From Bacteroidales bacterium (GTDB lineage: Bacteria > Bacteroidota > Bacteroidia > Bacteroidales > ML635J-15), in contig JAFGVU010000241.1 in NCBI GenBank assembly GCA_016937855.1, positions 1-33,692 on the forward strand: a stretch of DNA of 33,692 nt. Reading direction: 5' to 3'. The position numbers and the translations under genes were made by a program. The notes below the pieces were generated by a model. It did not search any database. It saw only the letters and a list, made by a program, of their open reading frames with translations, and was not told the DNA's origin. Shown in pieces: positions 11,015 through 26,325 of this stretch. The stretch's first letter is position 1. Each line of letters begins with the position of its first letter.

Positions 11015-11497
11015 CTAATTATTGCTTTCAATCTTTTCGACTCTCAATCCAATATCCATAATCCCTGGCAAATCTTTTACTCTCATAGCTTGTTCAAATT
11101 GCACCCGATATACCCCCTTATGTGAGAATCGCACATTAGATTTCCAGGGTATCTGAATATCCCATATATCTCCCATACCATCTCCCAGCCATCTGTTATC
11201 AGCATCCACCAAAACACATTCCACAGAATCGATGTTAATAGTTCCGTTGGGTGCAGAGGATTTTACAAACATCCACAAGTTACTATATGGATAAACCGAA
11301 GCATGTCTTACATTAATTAGTACGTTGTGTAATGAGGCAGTATCCTCAATCTCAAACTCAAAATTGATTTTATTATCTTGTGACCATATATTGTTTTCAA
11401 TTTCGACATACTCTTCAAATACCCTATTACGGTCGCAAGAAGTCGATAATACTATTACAAATAATATTGTGAAAATGGAGCTAAACTTTTTTATCAT
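11015..11497 (-). CDS. gldH: Gliding motility lipoprotein GldH
   Basis: 160 residues from ATG 11497. The signal MIKKFSSIFTILFVIVLSTS followed by Cys21 marks a lipoprotein. The mature part matches GldH: an early FEEYVEIENNIWS, a beta-rich core with LINVRHASVYPYSNLW, GDGMGDIWDIQIPW, and a final YRVQFEQAMRVKDLPGI. Family knowledge: GldH is a periplasmic or outer-membrane lipoprotein needed for gliding in Flavobacterium and present in many non-gliders with type IX secretion; its biochemical role is not settled. The start overlaps the end of ricT by 17 nt, indicating translational coupling. A longer frame to 11575 would lack a signal peptide at its start. Confidence 0.9.
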   Translation of the reverse strand: MIKKFSSIFTILFVIVLSTSCDRNRVFEEYVEIENNIWSQDNKINFEFEIEDTASLHNVLINVRHASVYPYSNLWMFVKSSAPNGTINIDSVECVLVDADNRWLGDGMGDIWDIQIPWKSNVRFSHKGVYRVQFEQAMRVKDLPGIMDIGLRVEKIESNN

Positions 11498-12644
11498 TTT
11501 TGTTTGGTTTAAAATTTCGTTTTTTTCTTCTTCTCGGATTGTTTTTATTAGAATTATTAGTTTCCGGTTTATCAAATCTGGTTAAGCTTTCGGAGTTTAA
11601 CTCCTCTTTGTAGTTTGTGCTTCTACCACCTTGTTTTTCTATCTCAAAAATTTCGTCAGGTATAATACCTTTTGCATTTAATTCCATTATTTCCTTAACT
11701 TTTTCGACATGCAAAGCTCTGATAACTGGTATATCATTCATTCTTATCTCAAAATACATCAGTTGCTTAAAAATATCGTTTTTAATATGGTGAGCTTCGC
11801 CCTGCTTAGTTTTCAGACTTACGATTTTTTTAGGAAATTTTTCTCTCTCGGTGAGATAAATAGGTAATTCATAATTTAAACAACATTTGAGTTTGCTACA
11901 TTGTCCTGCGAGCTTTTGAGGATTTAAGGATAATTCCTGCAGACGTGCAGAGTTAGTTGAAACTGAATTGAAATCCGACATCCAAGTTGTGCAACAAAGT
12001 TCTCTGCCACATGGTCCAATTCCACCTATACGACCTGCTTCTTGTCTGGCACCAATTTGTTTCATTTCCACTCTGATGCGAAATTCTTCGGCCATTTTCT
12101 TTATCAATTCACGAAAATCGACTCTTTCTTCGGCTATATAATAGAAAATAGCTTTAGTTTTATCTCCCTGATATTCGACATCGCCAATTTTCATTGAGAG
12201 TTTAAGCATGTCTGCAATTTCTCTTGTTCTAATCATTGTTGGGATTTCGAGACTGATTGCATCTTGCCATTTTTGAATATCAGAAGTTTTAGCTTTACGA
12301 TATACCTTTTTAGGGACATTATCTTTGGTTGGTTTTTGTTTATTCATTTGCAACATTGCAATATGTCCTACTGCCGATACAATGCCAATATCGTGTCCGG
12401 GTGAGGATTCAACAGCAACAATATCGCCAACTTCAAGATGTAGATCGGTAGCATTTTCGTAAATTCCTTTGCGAGTATTTTTAAACCTTATCTCGACATA
12501 TTTATTTTGAGTTAAAGGGTCTTTTATATCCTTAAGCCAATCGTAAACATCAAGTTTGTTACAGCAATTGACGGATTTTATATTGCAACCGTTTTCGTCA
12601 ACACTTGATGGTGTACATCCTCTTTCGTATTCTCGGTCTGTCAT
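11481..12644 (-). CDS. ricT: RicT/PSP1-domain regulatory iron-sulfur protein
   Basis: 387 residues. The PSP1 domain fills about 45-300. The core signature GPCGRELCCTTW (about 213-224) and GQCSKLKCCLNYEL (about 247-260) supplies Cys residues known in the Bacillus Ric (YaaT) complex to help hold 4Fe-4S clusters. Additional Cys at 10, 20, 27 and 28 form an N-terminal cluster. The C-terminal tail (about 345-387) is basic and Asn/Lys-rich (NNSNKNNPRRRKKRNFKPNK), suggesting RNA contact. In Bacillus, RicT helps RNase Y mature mRNAs; whether that holds in Bacteroidota is unknown. It sits between holB (4 nt gap) and gldH (17 nt overlap), an order I recall as common in this phylum. Confidence 0.9.
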   Translation of the reverse strand: MTDREYERGCTPSSVDENGCNIKSVNCCNKLDVYDWLKDIKDPLTQNKYVEIRFKNTRKGIYENATDLHLEVGDIVAVESSPGHDIGIVSAVGHIAMLQMNKQKPTKDNVPKKVYRKAKTSDIQKWQDAISLEIPTMIRTREIADMLKLSMKIGDVEYQGDKTKAIFYYIAEERVDFRELIKKMAEEFRIRVEMKQIGARQEAGRIGGIGPCGRELCCTTWMSDFNSVSTNSARLQELSLNPQKLAGQCSKLKCCLNYELPIYLTEREKFPKKIVSLKTKQGEAHHIKNDIFKQLMYFEIRMNDIPVIRALHVEKVKEIMELNAKGIIPDEIFEIEKQGGRSTNYKEELNSESLTRFDKPETNNSNKNNPRRRKKRNFKPNKNDKKV

Positions 12645-12648
12645 AATT

Positions 12649-13773
12649 CTAGTTTTTTCTGATAACTTTCATAATTTTAAATGACGAATCTGTAAACACC
12701 AATTTGGCATTAACATTTCGTTCTATATGATAATAGGCTTCTTCGAAAATTTGCATCAGCTCATTAATGTTTGCTTGATTTACAAATTTTGCAAATTTTT
12801 CGGAAAATTCTATTTCTGTTTTAGTCATGTAAATTACTTGTTTTAACTTTGAGTTGTATGCAAAGTTTTCGCGTAATAGAACCAGACTATAGTATAGAAA
12901 ATTTTTTTGTTTCTCTCTTGAGTTTTTTGCTAGTTCTTCGCTGAGATTAATTGCATCAGGAATTTTATATCCATAACAAACTCTCATCAACTCAGTAAAT
13001 TTTGCAAAATTATATTCGGTTTCATCGTTAGTAATGATTTGTTTTCGAGCTTCAAAAAGACTGCCATTACTTATATTGACGATATCGCTTGCCATTTGAT
13101 CGCTAATGTTGTATTGCCGAATTATTGCATCTTTAAGGTCATTGTCTTCTATTCCTAGAATTTTAACAGGTTGTGTACGCGAACGTATAGTTGGCAAAAT
13201 ATCCTCACTATTATCACTAACCGAAATAATGATAGTATTTTGAGGTGGTTCTTCGAGAATTTTTAGAAGTTTGTTTGCACAAGTCCCATTCATCATCTCG
13301 GGAAGCCAAATAATCATACACTTATAATCAGATTCAAAAGTTTTCAGATTAATTTTTTTTGCAATTTCTACCGACTCATCCGCAAAAATACTACCTTGTT
13401 TATTTTCGCTAGCAATTGAGAATAACCATTCGTTATAGGTAAAATATGGGTCTTCTAAAACCTTTGCTCTCCATTCCTGAATATAATTATCGCTTATAGA
13501 TTTTTTCTTTGGATTTGAAATCACCGGAAAAACAAAATGCAAATCTGGATGTATCAGCTTCTCGAATTTTTTACAACTTGGGCATTCCCCACAACTGTCA
13601 TTCTCCAATTTATTGGTACACGAGATATATTGAGCAAAGGCAATAGCCAAAGCGAGTTTGCCAACTCCCGGGCTTCCATAAAACAAATACGAGTGACTTA
13701 CACGATTATCCCTATAAGCCTGTATTAACTTTTGTTTTATTTGGTGTTGCCCTATTACTTTTTCAAATTTCAT
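12649..13773 (-). CDS. holB: DNA polymerase III delta' subunit
   Basis: 374 residues from ATG 13773; a TTG at 13785 would add MCIR and is less likely. It belongs to the clamp-loader AAA+ family: Walker A GSPGVGK (33-39), a four-Cys zinc module (Cys52, 61, 64, 67), sensor region KLLKILEEPPQNTIIISVSDN, and the arginine-finger region IRSRTQPV, where the usual SRC Cys is Thr. Unlike E. coli delta', the P-loop looks intact, so it may bind nucleotide. It is too short for the DnaX tau form. Role: loading the sliding clamp at replication. It leads a compact leftward unit with ricT and gldH. Confidence 0.85.
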   Translation of the reverse strand: MKFEKVIGQHQIKQKLIQAYRDNRVSHSYLFYGSPGVGKLALAIAFAQYISCTNKLENDSCGECPSCKKFEKLIHPDLHFVFPVISNPKKKSISDNYIQEWRAKVLEDPYFTYNEWLFSIASENKQGSIFADESVEIAKKINLKTFESDYKCMIIWLPEMMNGTCANKLLKILEEPPQNTIIISVSDNSEDILPTIRSRTQPVKILGIEDNDLKDAIIRQYNISDQMASDIVNISNGSLFEARKQIITNDETEYNFAKFTELMRVCYGYKIPDAINLSEELAKNSREKQKNFLYYSLVLLRENFAYNSKLKQVIYMTKTEIEFSEKFAKFVNQANINELMQIFEEAYYHIERNVNAKLVFTDSSFKIMKVIRKN

Positions 13774-13795
13774 TCTTATGCACAATATATTAATG

Positions 13796-14017: not shown

Positions 14018-16405
14018 ATGAGCAACTTAGATAATTATAATTTCGCTGAGAAAAAGGTTCTTTTAAGGGTAGATTTTAATATCCCAATAATCAGTGATAA
14101 CAGAGATTCCGTTGATGACACCCGTATCCGATTATCATTGCCAACAATTCAGAAAATCTTATCTGAAAATGGGTCGATTATTTTGATGACTCATTGGGGT
14201 CGCCCAAAAGGAAATTTTGTCGAAAACAGATCATTAAAACATCTTTTACCATTGATTGAAAAACTAATTGGTCGTAAAATACAGTTTTGTGATGATCCAT
14301 TATCTGATAAGGCATTAAAAATGTCGCAAGACCTTAAACCGGGAGAGATTATGCTATTAGAAAATCTTAGGTTTTATGAAGGTGAAATCAGTGCAGACGA
14401 ACAATTTGCCGAGAAATTATCAAAACTTGGAGATTGCTATGTAAACAATTCATTTGGAACAGCACATCGAAACCATGCCTCTACCACCACAATAGCAAAG
14501 TTTTTCCCATACGATAAAATGTTTGGTTACGTTTTTGAGAGCGAGATAAAAAAGCTTGACAAACTGATAAAAAATGCCGAAACGCCATTTACCCTAATGA
14601 TTGGTGGCGACAAAGTAACCACAAAAATAGGTATTGTTGAGGCCTTGCTACCTAAAATAGACAACCTTCTTATTGGCGGAGCGATTGCGTTTACATTTGC
14701 GAAAGCTATTGGATATAATGTCGGAAAATCGCTTGTCGAAGAAGATTACATCCCTGTTGCAAAAAGAATACTCGAAACTGCTGAAAAGTTCAATGTAAAT
14801 ATTCAACTACCGGTTGACTGCCTTATTGCTGATAAAAATGGAAATGATGCAAATATTGAGCATTGCGAATTTTCTGAAATTCCGGATAGCTGGACAGCTC
14901 TTGATATAGGAATCAAAACCGTTGATTTATTTGCAGAAATTATCGAAGAATCAAAAACTCTACTTTGGGACGGACCTTTAGGCGTATATGAAATGTCGCA
15001 TTTTTCGTATGGAACACTAAAATTAGCTTTGTCAATTGCCAGAGCAACCGATAAAGGATTGTATTCAGTTGTTGGTGGCGGAGATACAATTGCAGCTCTT
15101 AACAAATATAGCCTATCTCATAAAATTTCATATATCAGTTCGGCGGGAGGCGCTTTGTTAGAATACTTTGAAAAGAAAAACCTACCTTCAATAAAAGCAA
15201 TTATCGAATCTTTTAGTATTGACGATTACAATTTTTACGGAAAAAGAGCATTGATTCGAGTCGATTTTAATGTTCCTCTTGATAAAGATTATAACATAGT
15301 GGACAATACACGCATAATTACTGCAATCCCAACTATCCGAAAAATACTTGCTGATGGCGGATCTGTAATATTAATGACACATCTCGGACGACCAAAAGGA
15401 GAATATGAGGAAAAATACTCGGTAAAACATATTGTTCCTTACTTGTCAAAAATTCTTGATACAGAGGTTAAGTTTGCAACAGATATTGTTGGTCAAGAGG
15501 CCTTAAATTTATCCAAAAATTTAAAGGCTCGTGAGGTGATGATTCTGGAAAATCTCAGATTCAATCCTCTCGAAACTAAAAATGACGAAGGATTCGCAAA
15601 ACAATTGTCCGAACTTGGTGATGTATATATTATGAATGCTTTTGGAACAGCGCACAGGGCACATTCATCAACTTATATGATTGCTAAGTTTTTCCCTGAA
15701 GATAAAATGCTTGGCTATCTGGTTGAAAGCGAAATCAATAATATCGACAGAGTTCTGTACAAAGGAGAAAAGCCTTTTACAGCAATAGTTGGAGGATCAA
15801 AAGTTTCTACTAAAATTGATATTATCAGAGCTTTGATGGAAAAGGTAGATAATTTAATTATTGGCGGTGGTATTGCATTTACATTTATCAAAGCAATGGG
15901 TGGTAGTATTGGCGATTCACTAGTAGAGGAAGATTATGTTGCTGTTGCAAAAGAAATACTTGAGCAGGCAATGAAAACTGATGTAAAATTATACCTCCCG
16001 ATTGACTGCATAATTGCAAATAAATTTGATAACAATGCAAAAATCAAACACTGCAAAATCAACGAAATCCCTAAAGGATGGATGGGGCTGGATATTGGCG
16101 TTAAATCGGCAGAAACTTTCAATAAAGTAATTGAGAAGTCGAATACTCTTTTATGGAATGGACCAATGGGGGTTTTCGAAATGGATCATTTTTGCAATGG
16201 GACAATAAAAATTGCCCTTGCTGTTTCCAGATCTACTGATTTTGGAGCATTTTCACTTGTTGGTGGTGGTGACAGTATTGCCGCACTAAACAAATACGGT
16301 TTAGCGCACAAAATCTCTTATGTTTCTACTGCAGGAGGAGCTCTTTTAGAATATATCGAAGGCAAAGAATTGCCAAGTTTAAAAGCAATTAGAAGCAGAC
16401 TATAG
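14018..16405 (+). CDS. Tandem fused phosphoglycerate kinase (PGK-PGK)
   Basis: 795 residues, twice the usual PGK length of about 395. Domain 1 (1-398) and domain 2 (399-795) are each complete and align end to end: MSNLDNYNFAEKKVLLRVDFN matches FSIDDYNFYGKRALIRVDFN, with no linker. PGK transfers phosphate between 1,3-bisphosphoglycerate and ADP in glycolysis. Domain 1 shows RVDFN (17-21), TRI with Arg36, HWGRPKG (59-65), LENLRF (Arg118), FGTAHRNH (146-153), GGDKVTTK (196-203), WDGPLGVYE (317-325) and GGGDT. Domain 2 shows RVDFNVP, TRI, HLGRPKG, LENLRF, FGTAHRAH, GGSKVSTK, WNGPMGVFE (713-721) and GGGDS. Domain 1 differs at two nucleotide-site positions (Asp198 in GGDK; Asp318 for Asn), so its nucleotide use may differ. 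No stop codon separates the halves. Both could be active, or one could be regulatory. Confidence 0.93.
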   Translation: MSNLDNYNFAEKKVLLRVDFNIPIISDNRDSVDDTRIRLSLPTIQKILSENGSIILMTHWGRPKGNFVENRSLKHLLPLIEKLIGRKIQFCDDPLSDKALKMSQDLKPGEIMLLENLRFYEGEISADEQFAEKLSKLGDCYVNNSFGTAHRNHASTTTIAKFFPYDKMFGYVFESEIKKLDKLIKNAETPFTLMIGGDKVTTKIGIVEALLPKIDNLLIGGAIAFTFAKAIGYNVGKSLVEEDYIPVAKRILETAEKFNVNIQLPVDCLIADKNGNDANIEHCEFSEIPDSWTALDIGIKTVDLFAEIIEESKTLLWDGPLGVYEMSHFSYGTLKLALSIARATDKGLYSVVGGGDTIAALNKYSLSHKISYISSAGGALLEYFEKKNLPSIKAIIESFSIDDYNFYGKRALIRVDFNVPLDKDYNIVDNTRIITAIPTIRKILADGGSVILMTHLGRPKGEYEEKYSVKHIVPYLSKILDTEVKFATDIVGQEALNLSKNLKAREVMILENLRFNPLETKNDEGFAKQLSELGDVYIMNAFGTAHRAHSSTYMIAKFFPEDKMLGYLVESEINNIDRVLYKGEKPFTAIVGGSKVSTKIDIIRALMEKVDNLIIGGGIAFTFIKAMGGSIGDSLVEEDYVAVAKEILEQAMKTDVKLYLPIDCIIANKFDNNAKIKHCKINEIPKGWMGLDIGVKSAETFNKVIEKSNTLLWNGPMGVFEMDHFCNGTIKIALAVSRSTDFGAFSLVGGGDSIAALNKYGLAHKISYVSTAGGALLEYIEGKELPSLKAIRSRL

Positions 16406-20080: not shown

Positions 20081-20107
20081 AAGGAGGCTATTCGCCTCCT
20101 TTTCTTT
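20081..20107 (+). terminator. Terminator after the PKD protein, overlapping the end of the minus-strand PGK paralogue
   Basis: AAGGAGGC (20081-20088) pairs with GCCTCCTT (20094-20101), with loop TATTC and T-rich tail. It starts 25 nt after the stop at 20055. The final codons and stop of the convergent PGK-like gene lie inside the hairpin. Confidence 0.85.
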
Positions 20108-21383
20108 TTATTAGCTCTGCAACAGGTTCAATTCCTAAATGTGAACCTTGTTCAATTGCTTTTAAAACAGCCCCTCCACCGGTAAAAATATAATATTTTG
20201 GGCTATCCAGAGCCATAATATATAATCCGGGAAGAAGACGTTTAAGCTCTTGCATGGTGTCTCCACCGCCATAAAGTTTAACAGCTTCAGGATTTTCGTC
20301 AATTAGCGTATCTAGTGCAATGGTTCCATCATTAAAGTGTGGTGTAAATCCCATTACTGCATTTACAAAAACTGTACGTGCGCTATGAAAAACCTCTTGT
20401 ACATTTTTATCCTCAAAAGACTCTGCAGCAACATCTAAAATATAGTTTAGAGCATCGCCCTTTTTAAGTTTTCGAATGTCATGTACACGATATTTGCCTT
20501 TTGCTTTATCTCCCAACACATCTGATTCAACAATAAATGGAAGTTCCACAATTTTATTGGGATACTGCTTTGCAAACTCAACAAACTCACCCGCTAATTT
20601 AATGTCTTTTTCGCTAACCCCTTTAATTGAAATGCCGTATTTTGCACATAAATAAGCATTGTACATAACACCGCCCAAAATAAGATTGTCCGCCTTTTTT
20701 AAAAGAGCATAAAGTGGTTCTATCTTTGTATCAAACTTACTTCCGGCAACAACAGCAAGAAAAGGTTTATCGGCATTATAGAGCCGCTCAAGATTTTTTA
20801 TTTCTTTTTGCATTAAAAACCCTGCATACGATGGCAAATACTTGTTTATTCCCACAGTCGAAGCGTGTGGCTGCCAACTTCCAAAAGCATCGTTAATGTA
20901 GATATCCGCTAGCCCGGCTAACTGATTAGCAAATCTATCCATCTCTTCGGAACCTGCTTCTTCGCCCTTAAACCATCTGGTATTTGGCAAATAAATGGCA
21001 TCTATCTCACTATTTTTTAGTCGCTTTATTGCGTGATTGATATTTGTTTCGATACTTAAATACCCCTGATTTTCATGTGAGTAAAACTCAGGAACTTCAA
21101 TATTAATGTGTAGTTTATTACTGAGATAGTTTACAATAGGTTGAACAGAGGTTTTGTCGTCAATTGTTATATTTCCTGTACTTTTTTCTTTCGGACGTCC
21201 AACATGTGTCATGAGGATAATTTTTCCTCCTTTTGCCAAAATGTAAAACAATGTGCCAAATGTGGCATCAATTCGATAAGGATCGTGAATCATTCCGGAT
21301 TTTACGACGTTGTGATCAACGCGCACCAAAACAACTTTTCCTGTTAAATTAGCATCTTGAATAAGTGGTAAATTGCTATTCAT
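20088..21383 (-). CDS. Divergent phosphoglycerate kinase paralogue
   Basis: 431 residues from ATG 21383; a TTG at 21422 would add 13 residues. The PGK fold is clear: VLVRVDHNV (18-26), YRI with Arg37, MTHVGRPK, INDAFG, AGSKFDTK, LYGGGDTMQEL and FTGGGAVLKAIEQG. Many family-invariant positions have changed: LLENLRF reads LPNTRWF, the substrate-site TAHRAH reads SWQPHA (losing a His and the Arg), and WNGPMGVFE reads VNAVMGFTP. The protein is also about 35 residues longer than usual. It may be an enzyme with altered substrate or a non-catalytic paralogue. It is present alongside the two-domain PGK 3.7 kb away, so it is probably not the main glycolytic enzyme. A minus-strand TAATTTTG (21406-21399) is a candidate -7 element. 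Confidence 0.82.
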   Translation of the reverse strand: MNSNLPLIQDANLTGKVVLVRVDHNVVKSGMIHDPYRIDATFGTLFYILAKGGKIILMTHVGRPKEKSTGNITIDDKTSVQPIVNYLSNKLHINIEVPEFYSHENQGYLSIETNINHAIKRLKNSEIDAIYLPNTRWFKGEEAGSEEMDRFANQLAGLADIYINDAFGSWQPHASTVGINKYLPSYAGFLMQKEIKNLERLYNADKPFLAVVAGSKFDTKIEPLYALLKKADNLILGGVMYNAYLCAKYGISIKGVSEKDIKLAGEFVEFAKQYPNKIVELPFIVESDVLGDKAKGKYRVHDIRKLKKGDALNYILDVAAESFEDKNVQEVFHSARTVFVNAVMGFTPHFNDGTIALDTLIDENPEAVKLYGGGDTMQELKRLLPGLYIMALDSPKYYIFTGGGAVLKAIEQGSHLGIEPVAELIKRKGGE

Positions 21384-21398
21384 AAAATTATATTTTTG

Positions 21399-21406
21399 CA
21401 AAATTA
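21399..21406 (-). promoter_or_regulatory. Candidate -7 element for the divergent PGK gene
   Basis: Minus strand reads TAATTTTG, a match to TAnnTTTG, 15 nt upstream of the ATG at 21383. This would give a very short leader. A TTTG lies 13 bp further upstream, closer than usual. Confidence 0.4.
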
Positions 21407-21450
21407 GAAAATTATATGGCAAATTTTAGAGGAACTCAAAAAGTTAAAAT

Positions 21451-21514: not shown

Positions 21515-24500
21515 CTATCTTAAAAGAGTAACTTGTCCTGTTTCTGTATGTTCGTTTCCATAAAGATCCACAAATGTTAATACCCAAATATAAACTCCTT
21601 CGGGACATTCTTTGTTTTCATATCTTCCATCCCACTCTTCTTCGTATTCCTCAGAGAAGAAAACAGTTTCTCCCCAACGATTATAAACAGCTAATGTATA
21701 TGTTTCGGAATCAACTCCATCAACAATAACTTTAAAGGTTTCGTTAAGTTCGTCATGATTTGGAGTAAATGCTGTTGGAGCATAAACTGCAAGTTCATTA
21801 GACACAAAGATATCAACTCCTGTAGAGTCTGCACATCCATAGAGTGATGTTGTGAGCATTGTTACATGATACGTTCCGGGTAATGAGAACACATGGCTTG
21901 GATTAGCCGCATTGCTAAAGTTTCCGTCGCCAAAGTCCCAATTATAGAAGAATCCTCCCTCAGTATAGTTTGTAAAGTAAACTACCGGTGTTGCCATAGT
22001 AACATTTGTTCTATTTGCTCTGAATTCGGCTTCCGGTATCGGGAATACAGTAATTGCAATTGTAGAATCGATACTACATCCTTCAGTAGAAACAATTTCT
22101 AATCCAACATGGAATGTTCTGGCATTGTAGAAAGTGTGAACCGGATGTTTATCGAAAGATAAGTTTTCAAAATCTCCATCATCGAAATTCCAAATATATC
22201 TTTGCCCTATATCAGGACTATTTTCGTGGAATTGCACTGTAAGAGGAGTACATCCATTATTTGGATCAGCCGTAATATTTACAGGAGGTAATGGATAATT
22301 ATAAAGTGGATACTCAATCTTCACACTATCAAAGCCACAAACATCATAAACTAAAAACTCAAAAACAGAATCATTCGCTACTGCAACAGATATCGGCAAA
22401 GTCATCAAGGAGTCATTAACATAAACTTCTGTACCTGATAATCCACCACCATCAATAATTACTTCGAAATTAACAGTATCTCCAGGACAAACAGTATCGC
22501 GATCGGCGGTTACTTCCATTAATAAAGGTTTTAAAACATTTACAGTTATTTCAACATCCTGGCTTACGCAATTTGCTGCATCAACAATACTGGCAGTGTA
22601 AGTAGTTGTTTCAAGTGGATTAACAAGTGTTGTCATACCATTATCATCATTACTCCAAACAATAGTATATGGAGGAACACTTCCTGTAATAATTCCAATT
22701 CCAATTTCTGTATTTTGACCATAACAAATTGTTGGATCGTCCATGGTTTGAATATAGAAAGGATCTGGCTCTGTTAAGTCTATTGTCATAGAATAATGAC
22801 AGAAGTTTTGGTCGGTAGCAGTAACGGTATATGTACCTGCACCTACTCCGATTAAGTCTTCCTGCCAACTTCCGGTATTCCACTCATAATTATAAGGAGG
22901 TATTCCTCCCGAAACAGTAATATATACATTTCCGTCTTCTCCACCATTACAGGTAATATTGTTTCCGCTAATTGTTCCGACCATTGGAGAGTCTGCCTGG
23001 AATATCTGAACTGTATCTCCGGCAACACAACCATGATCATCATTAATTGTTACGCTGTAAATACCCGGAATTAAATCATAAATATCTTCGGAGATTTCGC
23101 CGTTACTCCAACTGAAGTAATATGGGGGTGTTCCTCCGAAAACGTTCAGGTCTGCAATTCCATTACCTTCACCAAAACATCTTACATGAGTTGGAGTAAT
23201 ATCTCCATGCAATGGTAAGTCGGGTTGTTGAATTTGAACCATAGTATAGTTTACACAACCATGAGCATCGGTTACAGTAACGACATAAATACCGGCAAAA
23301 ATATCGAATAAATCTTGCGACCCGGAGCCATTACTCCACTCATAATCATAAGGAGGAGTTCCACCAGTAACAACAAGATCGACCGAGCCAGTGTTGTCTC
23401 CGTAGCATAATACATCCTGTGTGTAGGTTGACAATTCTAGTGGATCGGGTTGAGTAATTTCAAATTCATACTCAAACAAACATTCATGAGAGTCCACAAC
23501 TGTACCATTATAAACTCCTGCAGGAATATTTAATAAGTCTTGTGTCATTTGACCATTCGACCAAATATAGTAATATGGAGGTGTTCCGCCATCAATTTCG
23601 ATATCGATAAAACCGTCGCTTAAACCATGGCATGATACATGACCAATTTCGCTAAACGGCATTGAGATAGGAGCGTCTGGTTCAATGACGAAAACAGAAT
23701 CTTCGTGCTCACAACCAACAGCGTCGGTAATTGTTAAATAATGCCATCCGGCATAAACACCTTCGGGATTTGCATCAGTGCTACCGCTTGGCTCCCACAA
23801 ATAAGTATATGGAGGCACTCCACCTGTAACATAAGAGAATAAACTTCCGGTAGGTTCGCCATGACACAAAACTTCTTCTGAATATAAATTTGACAATATT
23901 GGTGGATTTTCGTCTGCAATATTCATCTCACCAAACACCTGACAACCATAAGTATCGGTTAGAGTAACAAAATAGTAACCCGAAGGAACGATAATCTCAT
24001 CCGTTGGTCCGGCATGAGTATTTATTGATCCCCATGAGTATTCCCAAGTAAAGTTAGGAGAACTGTTTATTGCAGTTACCGAAATAACACCACTAGTATC
24101 TCCAAAACACAATACGTCTTGTCCGGTAATTTCGATATCTAACTCAGGTAATGGGAACAACCATGTACCATCAAAAACTGTATCCTGAACAAAGCCTTGC
24201 AAGTCCCACTCCTGATCATACCATGTTAGTGGGATATATCCTAATGGGAATGTTTCTGAAATCAGTGGCTCGCAGTTTGTTGGGAAACAAAACTCTATAT
24301 CTTTTGCTTGAGAATCACCTCCACCTTTTGCCGGTTCGGGATCGTAATTCTCGGGCATATACTCGGCAAGAGTTATTGCCGGAGCCGGAATTGCAGGAGC
24401 ACAAGCTGTTATTGTCTGTGACATTCCTAAATCAGCATTATCCATATGTATTTCGGGAAGACAGAACTCAGGCATTGTTGTTATAGGAATAATATCATCA

Positions 24501-25810
24501 ATTGGGATATAAATTGAGAAATATATTGCTTCGATAATAAAATCGAATGTTATTGAGTCCCAGGTATGATTAGAAAAACCTGAAGTAATATTATAAGTAA
24601 CATCATAAACCTCAAGTGAGTCGTAATCATAACAAGGATAAGTAATATTCAGATCGTTGTTTATGGCAAAGGTAATAGTATCGGACACTCCTTCCTGAAC
24701 AATGATATTTCCGTTGGCCGGGTCTGTTTCGGAAAATGGAAGCTCAGTCTCAAATGCAAGTGTAGCCCAAATTGTAGGGCAGAAAGCAAAGTCCTGAGTC
24801 ATATAACTCGACATGTGCAAATCCATATGAAGGATAAAATACTCTATGACTGCATTTACACCGCTAATAATCTCATATTCGATTGTACCTCCTTCCAGAA
24901 AATCGATAGCTTCCTGAATTGCCGGTCCGTTTGGAGGGGGTATTAAGCCAGCAAGGAAACCGAGAAAGTCCATTAGATTAAGATTAAACCACATCCACTC
25001 GTCATTGCCATGAGCGTGCAAACATTGCGTTGTCGGGTCTAACCAATCATCTGTTTCGACATAAGGAATATCAATTTCTCCGGTTAGTCCAATTCCGAAC
25101 CAATCGGGTATTACAATTGGCAATAAATCGTCTTCACAAATTTGGGGCAAACTAGTAACTGGGTCGAGACAAGGATATGCAACCTCGCCAGTTTGTCCGT
25201 TAAGATAAAAAATAGCTATAGAATCGTGTGGTAATGGATCGGTTGAGTATGGAACCGCAGGCACGCTAATTGTTGGAAGAATAGGAATCGTTTCACAATC
25301 AACCATACAAACTATAATATCTAAATTAAATCCAAAACCGTATTCTAAATCAAGTGCAATAATCCCGGCTGTTGGGAAATGTGTTTCAAGAGCCCAGCCG
25401 TCAAGGACTTCGTACGATGAATTGATAGTTATTGTTTCGCCATGGTCAAAAGAGTAATGATCAGGAAAATCTAGAGTAATCTCTACAGGATAATCAACAT
25501 CAACAGAACCTAATGTAAACCCATGAATACTAAAAGTTGAGTGTAAATACATCCATATCCCCATTTCGATGCCAATACCCCATTGAGTACCAAGAATATC
25601 CTCTATCCAGCCTTCCGAAAAACCTTCGTCCACCTGAATATCGAACAAATCGTAGTCAAAATCGAGGCTAAAAGCTCCTCCGGCACCCCACATATCCTGA
25701 TCGTGAGTGCTATAAGGTATTTCATGCACTAAAACATTAGTTTGAGAGTATATACCCGATACTCCCAAGGCTGCAAGAAATGTACAGATTATTAGTAACT
25801 TTTTTATCAT
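21515..25810 (-). CDS. Giant SprB-repeat/PKD surface protein with type B T9SS sorting domain
   Basis: 1431 residues from ATG 25810, which starts a signal peptide (MIKKLLIICTFLAALGVSGI, then YSQ); a longer frame to 25843 overlaps the upstream gene and starts outside the signal. Residues about 22-555 are a large N-terminal region I do not recognise, rich in Asp, Ile, Pro and aromatic residues, including IPPPNGPAI and AKGGGDSQAKDIEFC. Residues about 557-1094 hold seven SprB repeats (motifs GGTPPYxYxWSNG and AGxYxVTVTDxxGC). Then come a short beta domain, two PKD domains (about 1177-1334; YIWNFDDGDF and YNWDFGDGNF), and a gliding-associated C-terminal domain (about 1340-1431; APTAFTPNHDELNETFKV, VYNRWGETVF). 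It should be exported by type IX secretion as a surface adhesin-like protein. It starts 2 nt after the upstream stop, so the pair is translationally coupled. Confidence 0.9.
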   Translation of the reverse strand: MIKKLLIICTFLAALGVSGIYSQTNVLVHEIPYSTHDQDMWGAGGAFSLDFDYDLFDIQVDEGFSEGWIEDILGTQWGIGIEMGIWMYLHSTFSIHGFTLGSVDVDYPVEITLDFPDHYSFDHGETITINSSYEVLDGWALETHFPTAGIIALDLEYGFGFNLDIIVCMVDCETIPILPTISVPAVPYSTDPLPHDSIAIFYLNGQTGEVAYPCLDPVTSLPQICEDDLLPIVIPDWFGIGLTGEIDIPYVETDDWLDPTTQCLHAHGNDEWMWFNLNLMDFLGFLAGLIPPPNGPAIQEAIDFLEGGTIEYEIISGVNAVIEYFILHMDLHMSSYMTQDFAFCPTIWATLAFETELPFSETDPANGNIIVQEGVSDTITFAINNDLNITYPCYDYDSLEVYDVTYNITSGFSNHTWDSITFDFIIEAIYFSIYIPIDDIIPITTMPEFCLPEIHMDNADLGMSQTITACAPAIPAPAITLAEYMPENYDPEPAKGGGDSQAKDIEFCFPTNCEPLISETFPLGYIPLTWYDQEWDLQGFVQDTVFDGTWLFPLPELDIEITGQDVLCFGDTSGVISVTAINSSPNFTWEYSWGSINTHAGPTDEIIVPSGYYFVTLTDTYGCQVFGEMNIADENPPILSNLYSEEVLCHGEPTGSLFSYVTGGVPPYTYLWEPSGSTDANPEGVYAGWHYLTITDAVGCEHEDSVFVIEPDAPISMPFSEIGHVSCHGLSDGFIDIEIDGGTPPYYYIWSNGQMTQDLLNIPAGVYNGTVVDSHECLFEYEFEITQPDPLELSTYTQDVLCYGDNTGSVDLVVTGGTPPYDYEWSNGSGSQDLFDIFAGIYVVTVTDAHGCVNYTMVQIQQPDLPLHGDITPTHVRCFGEGNGIADLNVFGGTPPYYFSWSNGEISEDIYDLIPGIYSVTINDDHGCVAGDTVQIFQADSPMVGTISGNNITCNGGEDGNVYITVSGGIPPYNYEWNTGSWQEDLIGVGAGTYTVTATDQNFCHYSMTIDLTEPDPFYIQTMDDPTICYGQNTEIGIGIITGSVPPYTIVWSNDDNGMTTLVNPLETTTYTASIVDAANCVSQDVEITVNVLKPLLMEVTADRDTVCPGDTVNFEVIIDGGGLSGTEVYVNDSLMTLPISVAVANDSVFEFLVYDVCGFDSVKIEYPLYNYPLPPVNITADPNNGCTPLTVQFHENSPDIGQRYIWNFDDGDFENLSFDKHPVHTFYNARTFHVGLEIVSTEGCSIDSTIAITVFPIPEAEFRANRTNVTMATPVVYFTNYTEGGFFYNWDFGDGNFSNAANPSHVFSLPGTYHVTMLTTSLYGCADSTGVDIFVSNELAVYAPTAFTPNHDELNETFKVIVDGVDSETYTLAVYNRWGETVFFSEEYEEEWDGRYENKECPEGVYIWVLTFVDLYGNEHTETGQVTLLR

Positions 25811-25812
25811 AA

Positions 25813-26325
25813 TTATTTGGTGTATTGTGCGGTTAATAAACATTCAACTAGAACATCATATAAAAGCGATTTTGCAGATGTAGGATAGTTTGCGTTAATC
25901 CAGATTGTATTGTTGTAATCACCTGCGAATAACATTATCCGTTCGTAGTCATATCCCTTAACTGTAAATTCGACTAAATACAACACTCCACTCATACCAT
26001 TTTGCATTTTTACATTTTCTTTTGATATCAAAGTAACGTTTTGACTTTCGAAATGCTCGGGAGTCATCGCTTGGTCAATCATAATGTATGATGTCCCAAT
26101 TACCTCCTGCACTTGAACAGTAGTAGATGATCCGGGATGTAATAGACCCGGGATATTCTCGCTAACCAAAAAATGCTCCGGCGGAACCAATGTTACACTT
26201 GTTCCCGGTATTTGCACAAGCTCTCCTGGCGTATAGTTGGTTTGGAGAGCATTTTCTCCTAAATTTGTCTGTGAAAATGCTGTTACAGTGAACAACAAAA
26301 ATACGACTGAAATAAAAAATTTCAT
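25813..26325 (-). CDS. Small secreted protein, possibly PsbP/DcrB-like fold
   Basis: 170 residues from ATG 26325, chosen because AAGGAGG (26340-26334) precedes it at good spacing and a signal peptide follows (MKFFISVVFLLFTVTAFSQ). The mature part has IPGTSVTLVPPEHF, then VQVQEVIGTSYIMIDQAMTPEHF, then GVLYLVEFTVKGYDYERIMLFAGD. That pattern recalls small periplasmic proteins of the PsbP/DcrB/Mog1-like superfamily, but this is a by-eye resemblance only. No sorting domain or lipobox is present, so it is probably periplasmic or released. Translational coupling to the giant adhesin suggests it helps that protein fold, be exported or be anchored. Confidence 0.65.
   Translation of the reverse strand: MKFFISVVFLLFTVTAFSQTNLGENALQTNYTPGELVQIPGTSVTLVPPEHFLVSENIPGLLHPGSSTTVQVQEVIGTSYIMIDQAMTPEHFESQNVTLISKENVKMQNGMSGVLYLVEFTVKGYDYERIMLFAGDYNNTIWINANYPTSAKSLLYDVLVECLLTAQYTK

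Follow-up and report, generated by a model that had tools for sequence, protein, structure and literature searches.

A tandem of two fused phosphoglycerate kinases in a clade of Bacteroidales, and a possible passage of its first copy from enzyme to partner

Phosphoglycerate kinase (PGK) works by hinge closure. The enzyme is described as generally monomeric in PMC7729029, passages of which also name archaeal dimers and tetramers, PGK–TIM fusions and multidomain or dead PGKs of kinetoplastids. The kinetoplastid proteins resemble the one described here in having fused PGK domains, some of them 'dead' through loss of 3PG- or ATP-binding residues, but their fusion partners are PAS, CNB, calmodulin-binding and other domains; passages of PMC7729029 contain no double-PGK chain, and the terms 'PGK domains' and 'second PGK' are absent from its searched text. 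The PGK–TPI (PGK–TIM) fusion of Thermotoga (NCBIfam PRK13962) likewise joins PGK to a second glycolytic domain. Searches of openly available literature gave no PGK–PGK tandem among the titles and abstracts listed, in agreement with an initial sequence-only reading that knew of none in Bacteroidota.

Here we describe such a tandem. The window, by which we mean the whole stretch of DNA analysed, is the 33,692-nucleotide contig JAFGVU010000241.1 of a Bacteroidales bacterium (assembly GCA_016937855.1). Its PGK features are the following.

14018–16405, forward strand: tandem PGK–PGK gene, 795 residues, a single ORF with an ATG start (ORF call, Pfam, recurrence in relatives).
14027–15178, forward strand: copy 1 (T1), a full PGK domain matching profile positions 1–379 with 436.5 bits, changed at otherwise invariant positions (profile search, alignment).
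14969–14971, forward strand: Asp codon in copy 1, where aligned single PGKs and second copies have Asn (human Asn336 by motif; alignment).
15140–15142, forward strand: Ser codon in copy 1, where aligned single PGKs have Thr (human Thr393 by motif), adjoining the Ala394 change common to both copies (alignment).
15179–15217, forward strand: junction, 13 residues separating the profile matches; residues 387–401 of the structural model have pLDDT below 50 (profile search, model).
15218–16366, forward strand: copy 2 (T2), a full PGK domain matching profile positions 1–379 with 497.5 bits, with the checked catalytic residues all retained (profile search, alignment).
20088–21422, reverse strand: separate, divergent PGK paralogue (P3) outside the fusion, 290.5 bits (profile search, alignment).

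The sequence-only reading had claimed two complete PGK domains in one polypeptide, each with its main catalytic motifs, and both claims held. In a profile search of the whole genome, each copy exceeded the PF00162 cut-off of 27 bits and matched 379 of 379 profile positions in the same frame, with no stop codon within either. All 12 ligand residues checked (R21, D23, N25, R38, H62, R65, R122, R170, K215, K219, E343 and D374; human numbers assigned by motif and spacing, not by alignment to the human sequence) are present in both copies, which are 56% identical; copy 1 has Asp at N336. The genome contains only one further PGK match, separate and weaker (20151–21362, reverse strand), making three in all. 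Each half of the tandem, like monomeric PGK, is full length, and copy 2 has every catalytic residue checked, but the tandem differs from the monomer in carrying two copies per chain and Ala, not Gly, at hinge position 394 in both.

The tandem also exceeds the cut-off of the PGK/TPI model PRK13962 (929 against 883 bits), apparently as the sum of two PGK matches. Unlike the Thermotoga fusion it has no TPI domain: PGK was the only Pfam family found at 14018–16405, in two stretches totalling 930 bits, and the best NCBIfam stretch covered positions 4–392 of 645. We therefore rejected a PGK/TPI identity. A double PGK that satisfies the NCBI PGK/TPI model without a TPI domain is an annotation trap, and automatic naming of such proteins may be wrong.

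A separate start for copy 2 is unlikely in the window because the stretch checked contains ATG, GTG or TTG only at two places, 34 and 2 codons ahead of the RVDFN motif of copy 2; some such codon is present in the equivalent stretch in 18 of 29 tandems. An AlphaFold model of the tandem, made with a 21-row alignment, folded both halves (mean pLDDT 80.5) and gave them no fixed mutual arrangement, hence no interface between them (pTM 0.61; pLDDT below 50 at the junction). The 50 Foldseek matches listed were all PGK chains, aligned over at most 419 columns, the first being 3q3v_A (target TM 0.92).

A sequencing error hiding a stop or frameshift near the junction had been feared from the sequence, and recurrence in independent assemblies excludes it for the clade. 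The complete tandem lies in one unbroken ORF in 12 of the 31 genomes of the window's family, the window included, and so it does in 9 genomes drawn from five further families; two more are cut by contig ends. Two tandems of the same genus are each interrupted by a single in-frame stop, a TGA near the end of copy 1 in G012 (locus L055) and a TAA in copy 2 in G041 (L044), as an assembly or sequencing artefact might produce; set against the unbroken ORFs, an artefact is extremely improbable. Copy 1 of the G041 tandem also carries R65H and sits on a long branch.

Besides the unbroken tandems, the 31 family genomes include one (G001) in which the tandem is divided between two contigs, both of them crossing the junction, the two with one stop, 13 in which a half copy precedes a full PGK, and three without the tandem (G004, G009 and G011). 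G004 and G011 had no PGK match, and G009 had a match of paralogue strength only. With 2 of 31 interrupted and 3 of 31 lacking it, the tandem seems dispensable in some genomes of the family, although these bins may be incomplete. In an even sample of the order (247 genomes), 241 had a PGK match and 14 had the tandem or half form, in 7 of 120 family labels (f1, f10, f34, f48, f54, f82 and f97), a count for which every sampled genome with at least two PGK matches, 28 together with G000, G014, G016, G036 and G037, was re-inspected and to which genes split between contigs could add. The tandems of G033 and G186 are cut by contig ends.

Beyond the order, we used a query of 250 residues across the junction, which spanned the junction in 6 of 6 known tandem or half-tandem genomes as a positive control (E-values 1.9e-72 to 2.0e-112). 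These searches covered Bacteroidota and one other phylum, with the best value available for every genome. No comparable match appeared in 394 other Bacteroidota genomes, five of them from the same order (best 1.8e-46, a match to one half), or among 120 genomes from the phylum to which a Pelagibacteraceae record belongs (best 1.0e-30). Among plasmid records, the best 12 of 72 matches were about 1.2 kb each, the length of one PGK. The 26 loci named in a contig scan came from metagenome bins labelled Bacteroidales, Bacteroidota, Bacteroidetes, Marinilabiliales and, once, Acetofilamentum; the last of these is a Pelagibacteraceae single PGK with 37% identity. The fusion is a trait of a clade and not peculiar to the window's genome.

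The divergent paralogue has features of its own. In 7 of 7 rows it lacks the E343 position, R170 is replaced by Gln and the His just before it by Trp, with K215, K219 and D374 kept. A match of paralogue strength (243–292 bits) occurs in 28 of 31 family genomes, being the sole PGK match in G009, and in several other genomes of the order the best PGK match is only of this strength. In genus g19 (G044, L125:8668–12438; G043, L046) the tandem is followed, in the same orientation, by a paralogue ORF, giving three PGK units in a row, with a gap of about 33 bases between tandem and paralogue in G044. One genome has an extra single PGK (G046:C8:1687–2802, 424.6 bits) besides tandem and paralogue, in a bin with 7% contamination. 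On the reverse strand at 21515–25843, the window encodes a protein of 1,442 residues that carries SprB repeats together with a type IX secretion tail of the CHU_C kind.

A single duplication and fusion probably gave rise to the tandem, because 51 tandem halves formed one clade (100/99.9) against 32 other sequences in our careful full-length tree; several independent fusions are accordingly not favoured. In a tree of the N-domain alone, 51 halves formed one clade (100/98.7), as did 57 rows in a C-domain tree that included half copies (100/100). When the tree was rooted on PGKs from other Bacteroidota, one clade (SH-aLRT 100) took in all the tandem halves together with the full PGKs that follow the half copies. 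P3 paralogues, fragments, L072, L083, L044_T1 and redundant half-copy rows were omitted from the trees, and near-duplicates and long branches were further omitted from the careful ones; the first tree had no outgroup, and its midpoint root was not used. All 46 single PGKs have Gly at position 394, whereas Ala occupies it in all 32 second copies and in every first copy but one of the 32 (L010). Similarly, position 225 in copy 2 numbering is Met throughout the 46 singles; among tandems it is Ile in 94% of second copies and in 31 of the 32 first copies.

Within the clade, the first copies were not monophyletic in the best tree, and a constraint joining all 25 of them was not rejected (AU p 0.295). 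Both halves of the same protein were sisters in f97 and L078, and likewise in f48 in the rooted tree. We read these sister halves as gene conversion within the tandem; alternatively, they may reflect separate duplications. Adjacent unfused PGK ORFs in G169 (f27) were considered as a possible ancestor of the fusion and rejected, as their best matches sit in different single-PGK groups. These neighbours (locus L086) are about 64% and 78% identical to their best matches, which suggests that one was acquired; one of the two was absent from the tree set and compared by BLAST only. A 659-codon frame in G212 was also set aside, its upstream part being judged by eye to be open frame only.

The neighbourhood of the tandem is shared as well, beginning with its divergent neighbour.

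12649–13785, reverse strand: DNA polymerase III delta' gene, holB (neighbourhood comparison).

Relatives of holB, psp1, gldH and trmB flank the tandem in the window, in G003, G012 and G019 and in two other families. holB lies beside 3 of the 31 single-pgk loci tested, where most flanks extend for only about 1.5 kb, so that its absence says little; one further locus in this comparison, which made 32, was a tandem. It was probably at an old pgk locus that the fusion took place. In the window the GldH lipoprotein gene occupies 11015–11575.

In families other than the window's, both sites look intact from their residues. The catalytic ligands checked are retained in both copies, apart from H62S in one of the 18 first copies scored. 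Ala takes the place of G237 in 9 of 19 first copies, and it does so in 5 of 18 second copies. Constraint is also equal on the two copies there, dN/dS for the f82 pair being 0.055 (N-domain) and 0.009 (C-domain) for T1 and 0.045 and 0.009 for T2. This is what two independent PGKs on a string would look like: the fusion would only have raised dosage or been fixed by drift, and copy 1, not needed beside copy 2, would decay afterwards. In the window too, copy 1 retains those substrate and phosphate ligands that were checked. We consider this explanation rather unlikely, though a serious one, in view of the changes in the window's family described below. Our preferred reading, which we hold with moderate confidence, is that copy 2 is the enzyme and that copy 1, at first a second enzyme, is a cis partner on its way to becoming a non-catalytic module.

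In the window's family, copy 1 is altered at positions that are otherwise invariant or nearly so. N336D, F342Y and S375T are present in 9 of 9 same-genus rows and 3 of 5 other family rows, and T393S in 9 of 9 and 1 of 5; in the two rows from genus g19, copy 1 has the usual letters at these positions. Several of these sites have been linked to domain closure. Passages of PMC3900376 identify human Gly394 as a hinge residue, quote Szabo et al. for Arg38, Lys219, Asn336 and Glu343 as essential for closure, and report simulations in which Asn336 and Thr375 relay the nucleotide signal and Thr393 relays the substrate signal to the hinge. That N336D, F342Y and S375T are fixed together and not scattered argues against independent PGKs on a string. 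By contrast, the losses of catalytic residues from copy 1, found in 4 of 14 family rows (K215N in L022, D374N in L020, R65Q in L035 and R65H in L044) and not in the window's own copy 1, are scattered, one per lineage. They fit plain decay as well as they fit a copy turning into a partner, and so cut both ways. L022 (G020) and L020 (G010) are close relatives of the window.

The same substitutions could also mean that copy 1 has gained a new specificity, for instance for another nucleotide such as GDP or pyrophosphate, or for another acyl-phosphate, making the protein bifunctional. The fixed changes (position 214 to Asp, N336D, F342Y and S375T) do fall in the nucleotide half, and most 3PG ligands are kept, but K215, D374 or R65 is lost in single family members, and the half copy described below shares D214 and T375 yet has, by its residues, lost catalysis; we consider a new specificity improbable. 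Selection acts on both copies of the tandem to different degrees. Among three close genomes of the genus (dS was saturated for pairs involving the window), dN/dS was 0.117–0.149 for the N-domain and 0.042–0.063 for the C-domain of copy 1, against 0.028–0.036 and 0.008–0.043 for copy 2. Copy 1 is therefore under weaker constraint than copy 2 in the window's genus.

The most altered form of copy 1 occurs in 13 same-genus genomes of the 31 in the family, in which only its nucleotide domain (profile positions about 171–365, about 200 residues) precedes a full PGK. In 13 of 13, this half copy lacks the 3PG domain and residues Ser392-Thr393 and carries K219Q and P338T; its GGGD loop reads DGDD in 12 and DGND in one. 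It keeps D214 and T375. Mean dN/dS over 78 pairs was 0.087 for the half copy; for the full PGK that follows, it was 0.017 in the N-domain and 0.003 in the C-domain. This indicates that the half copy is maintained by selection even though it is predicted to be non-catalytic. Such constraint over 13 genomes is not expected if copy 1 merely decays beside a sufficient copy 2. Four of the 13 half copies, placed in the careful tree, grouped with first copies of the family (99/90). Position 336, however, is Asn in 13 of 13, whereas the first copies of the genus have Asp there. This is hard to square with the half having simply descended from those copies, and it counts against copy 1 passing gradually into a partner.

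The PGK behind the half copy looks like a mosaic, with a single-type N-domain and a tandem-type C-domain. Its N-domain fell with insertion-bearing single PGKs (97/80 and 99/90; two rows), and joining it to the tandem clade was not rejected (AU p 0.113), so that the tree alone is indecisive. This PGK also carries the insertion typical of singles, and in 5 of 5 rows used, from the 13 that exist, it has the residues of singles at positions 60 and 146 but those of tandems at 225 and 378. The N-domain placement, positions 60 and 146 and the insertion all counter a vertical origin of the entire second copy in these genomes. In 4 of the 13 half-copy loci, compared over 18 kb, the gene lies elsewhere, next to a relative of a glycine-cleavage H gene, which Pfam identified in one of the four.

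The two termini of PGK are near each other. The order of domains in the half form could thus be the end state (C1-N2-C2, half plus full) of a re-pairing in which the first nucleotide domain works with the second 3PG domain, much as in a circular permutant. The surviving half is indeed the nucleotide domain, immediately ahead of the second 3PG domain, and the PGK entry 1fw8, which we take to be a circular permutant, is among the solved-structure matches. With Lys219, Pro338 and the glycine loop gone, however, such a half is most unlikely to build a working site, and we regard re-pairing as very improbable.

Taken together, the data fit a model in which an ancestral Bacteroidales PGK gene was duplicated and fused head to tail once, to yield a covalent PGK pair. 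Conservation suggests that copy 2 is the working glycolytic/gluconeogenic PGK. Copy 1 would originally have been a second working enzyme, as it apparently still is in other families, and in the window's family it would be turning into a cis partner. From its fixed substitutions at the nucleotide site and at residues reported to transmit domain closure, we infer a copy 1 site that is slower or impaired in closure and that may aid copy 2 by nucleotide binding, packing or stabilisation. In one sub-lineage, the 3-phosphoglycerate-binding domain of copy 1 would then have been lost, leaving a decayed nucleotide domain that is conserved though non-catalytic. The fusion, the single clade, the residue changes and the purifying selection are observed; what the model says of activities, contacts or regulation is drawn from them. 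Two points weigh against copy 1 as a partner: purifying selection is equally expected of an active copy, and the window's copy 1, with its ligands all kept, may be fully active. The sequence-only reading had suggested either two coupled active sites or a catalytic paired with a regulatory half. Intact sites in other families favour the former and the altered or halved copy 1 of the window's family the latter; coupling or regulation itself found no support.

The most useful new part of the finding is that living relatives appear to stand at consecutive points of one series: both sites are intact in some, one site is altered in others, and in yet others a constrained, non-catalytic half-domain is left. 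Two PGKs have been welded together, with the hinge glycine changed in nearly all copies, and the passage from enzyme to partner becomes testable in a simple central enzyme.

Glycolytic kinases that arose by duplication and fusion are familiar. In the tandem hexokinases of mammals and in eukaryotic phosphofructokinase, a half may take on a regulatory role, and what the second half does was established by measurement. Those proteins are not PGKs, and the tandem PGK is known here from sequence alone. Passages of PMC8256278, on hexokinase, contain nothing on tandem halves. The tandem PGK matches the hexokinase-like way of working in having two homologous full domains per chain that derive from duplication. 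A constrained non-catalytic half is seen, from residues and dN/dS, in the 13 half-copy relatives, whereas copy 1 of the window keeps the ligands checked. By analogy, and tentatively, the tandem could be to bacteria what the tandem hexokinases are to mammals. Its hinge would have been retuned and its copy 1 made into a dedicated cis-regulator of PGK, and relatives would retain, as the regulator, only a pseudo-nucleotide-domain ahead of a PGK rebuilt by recombination.
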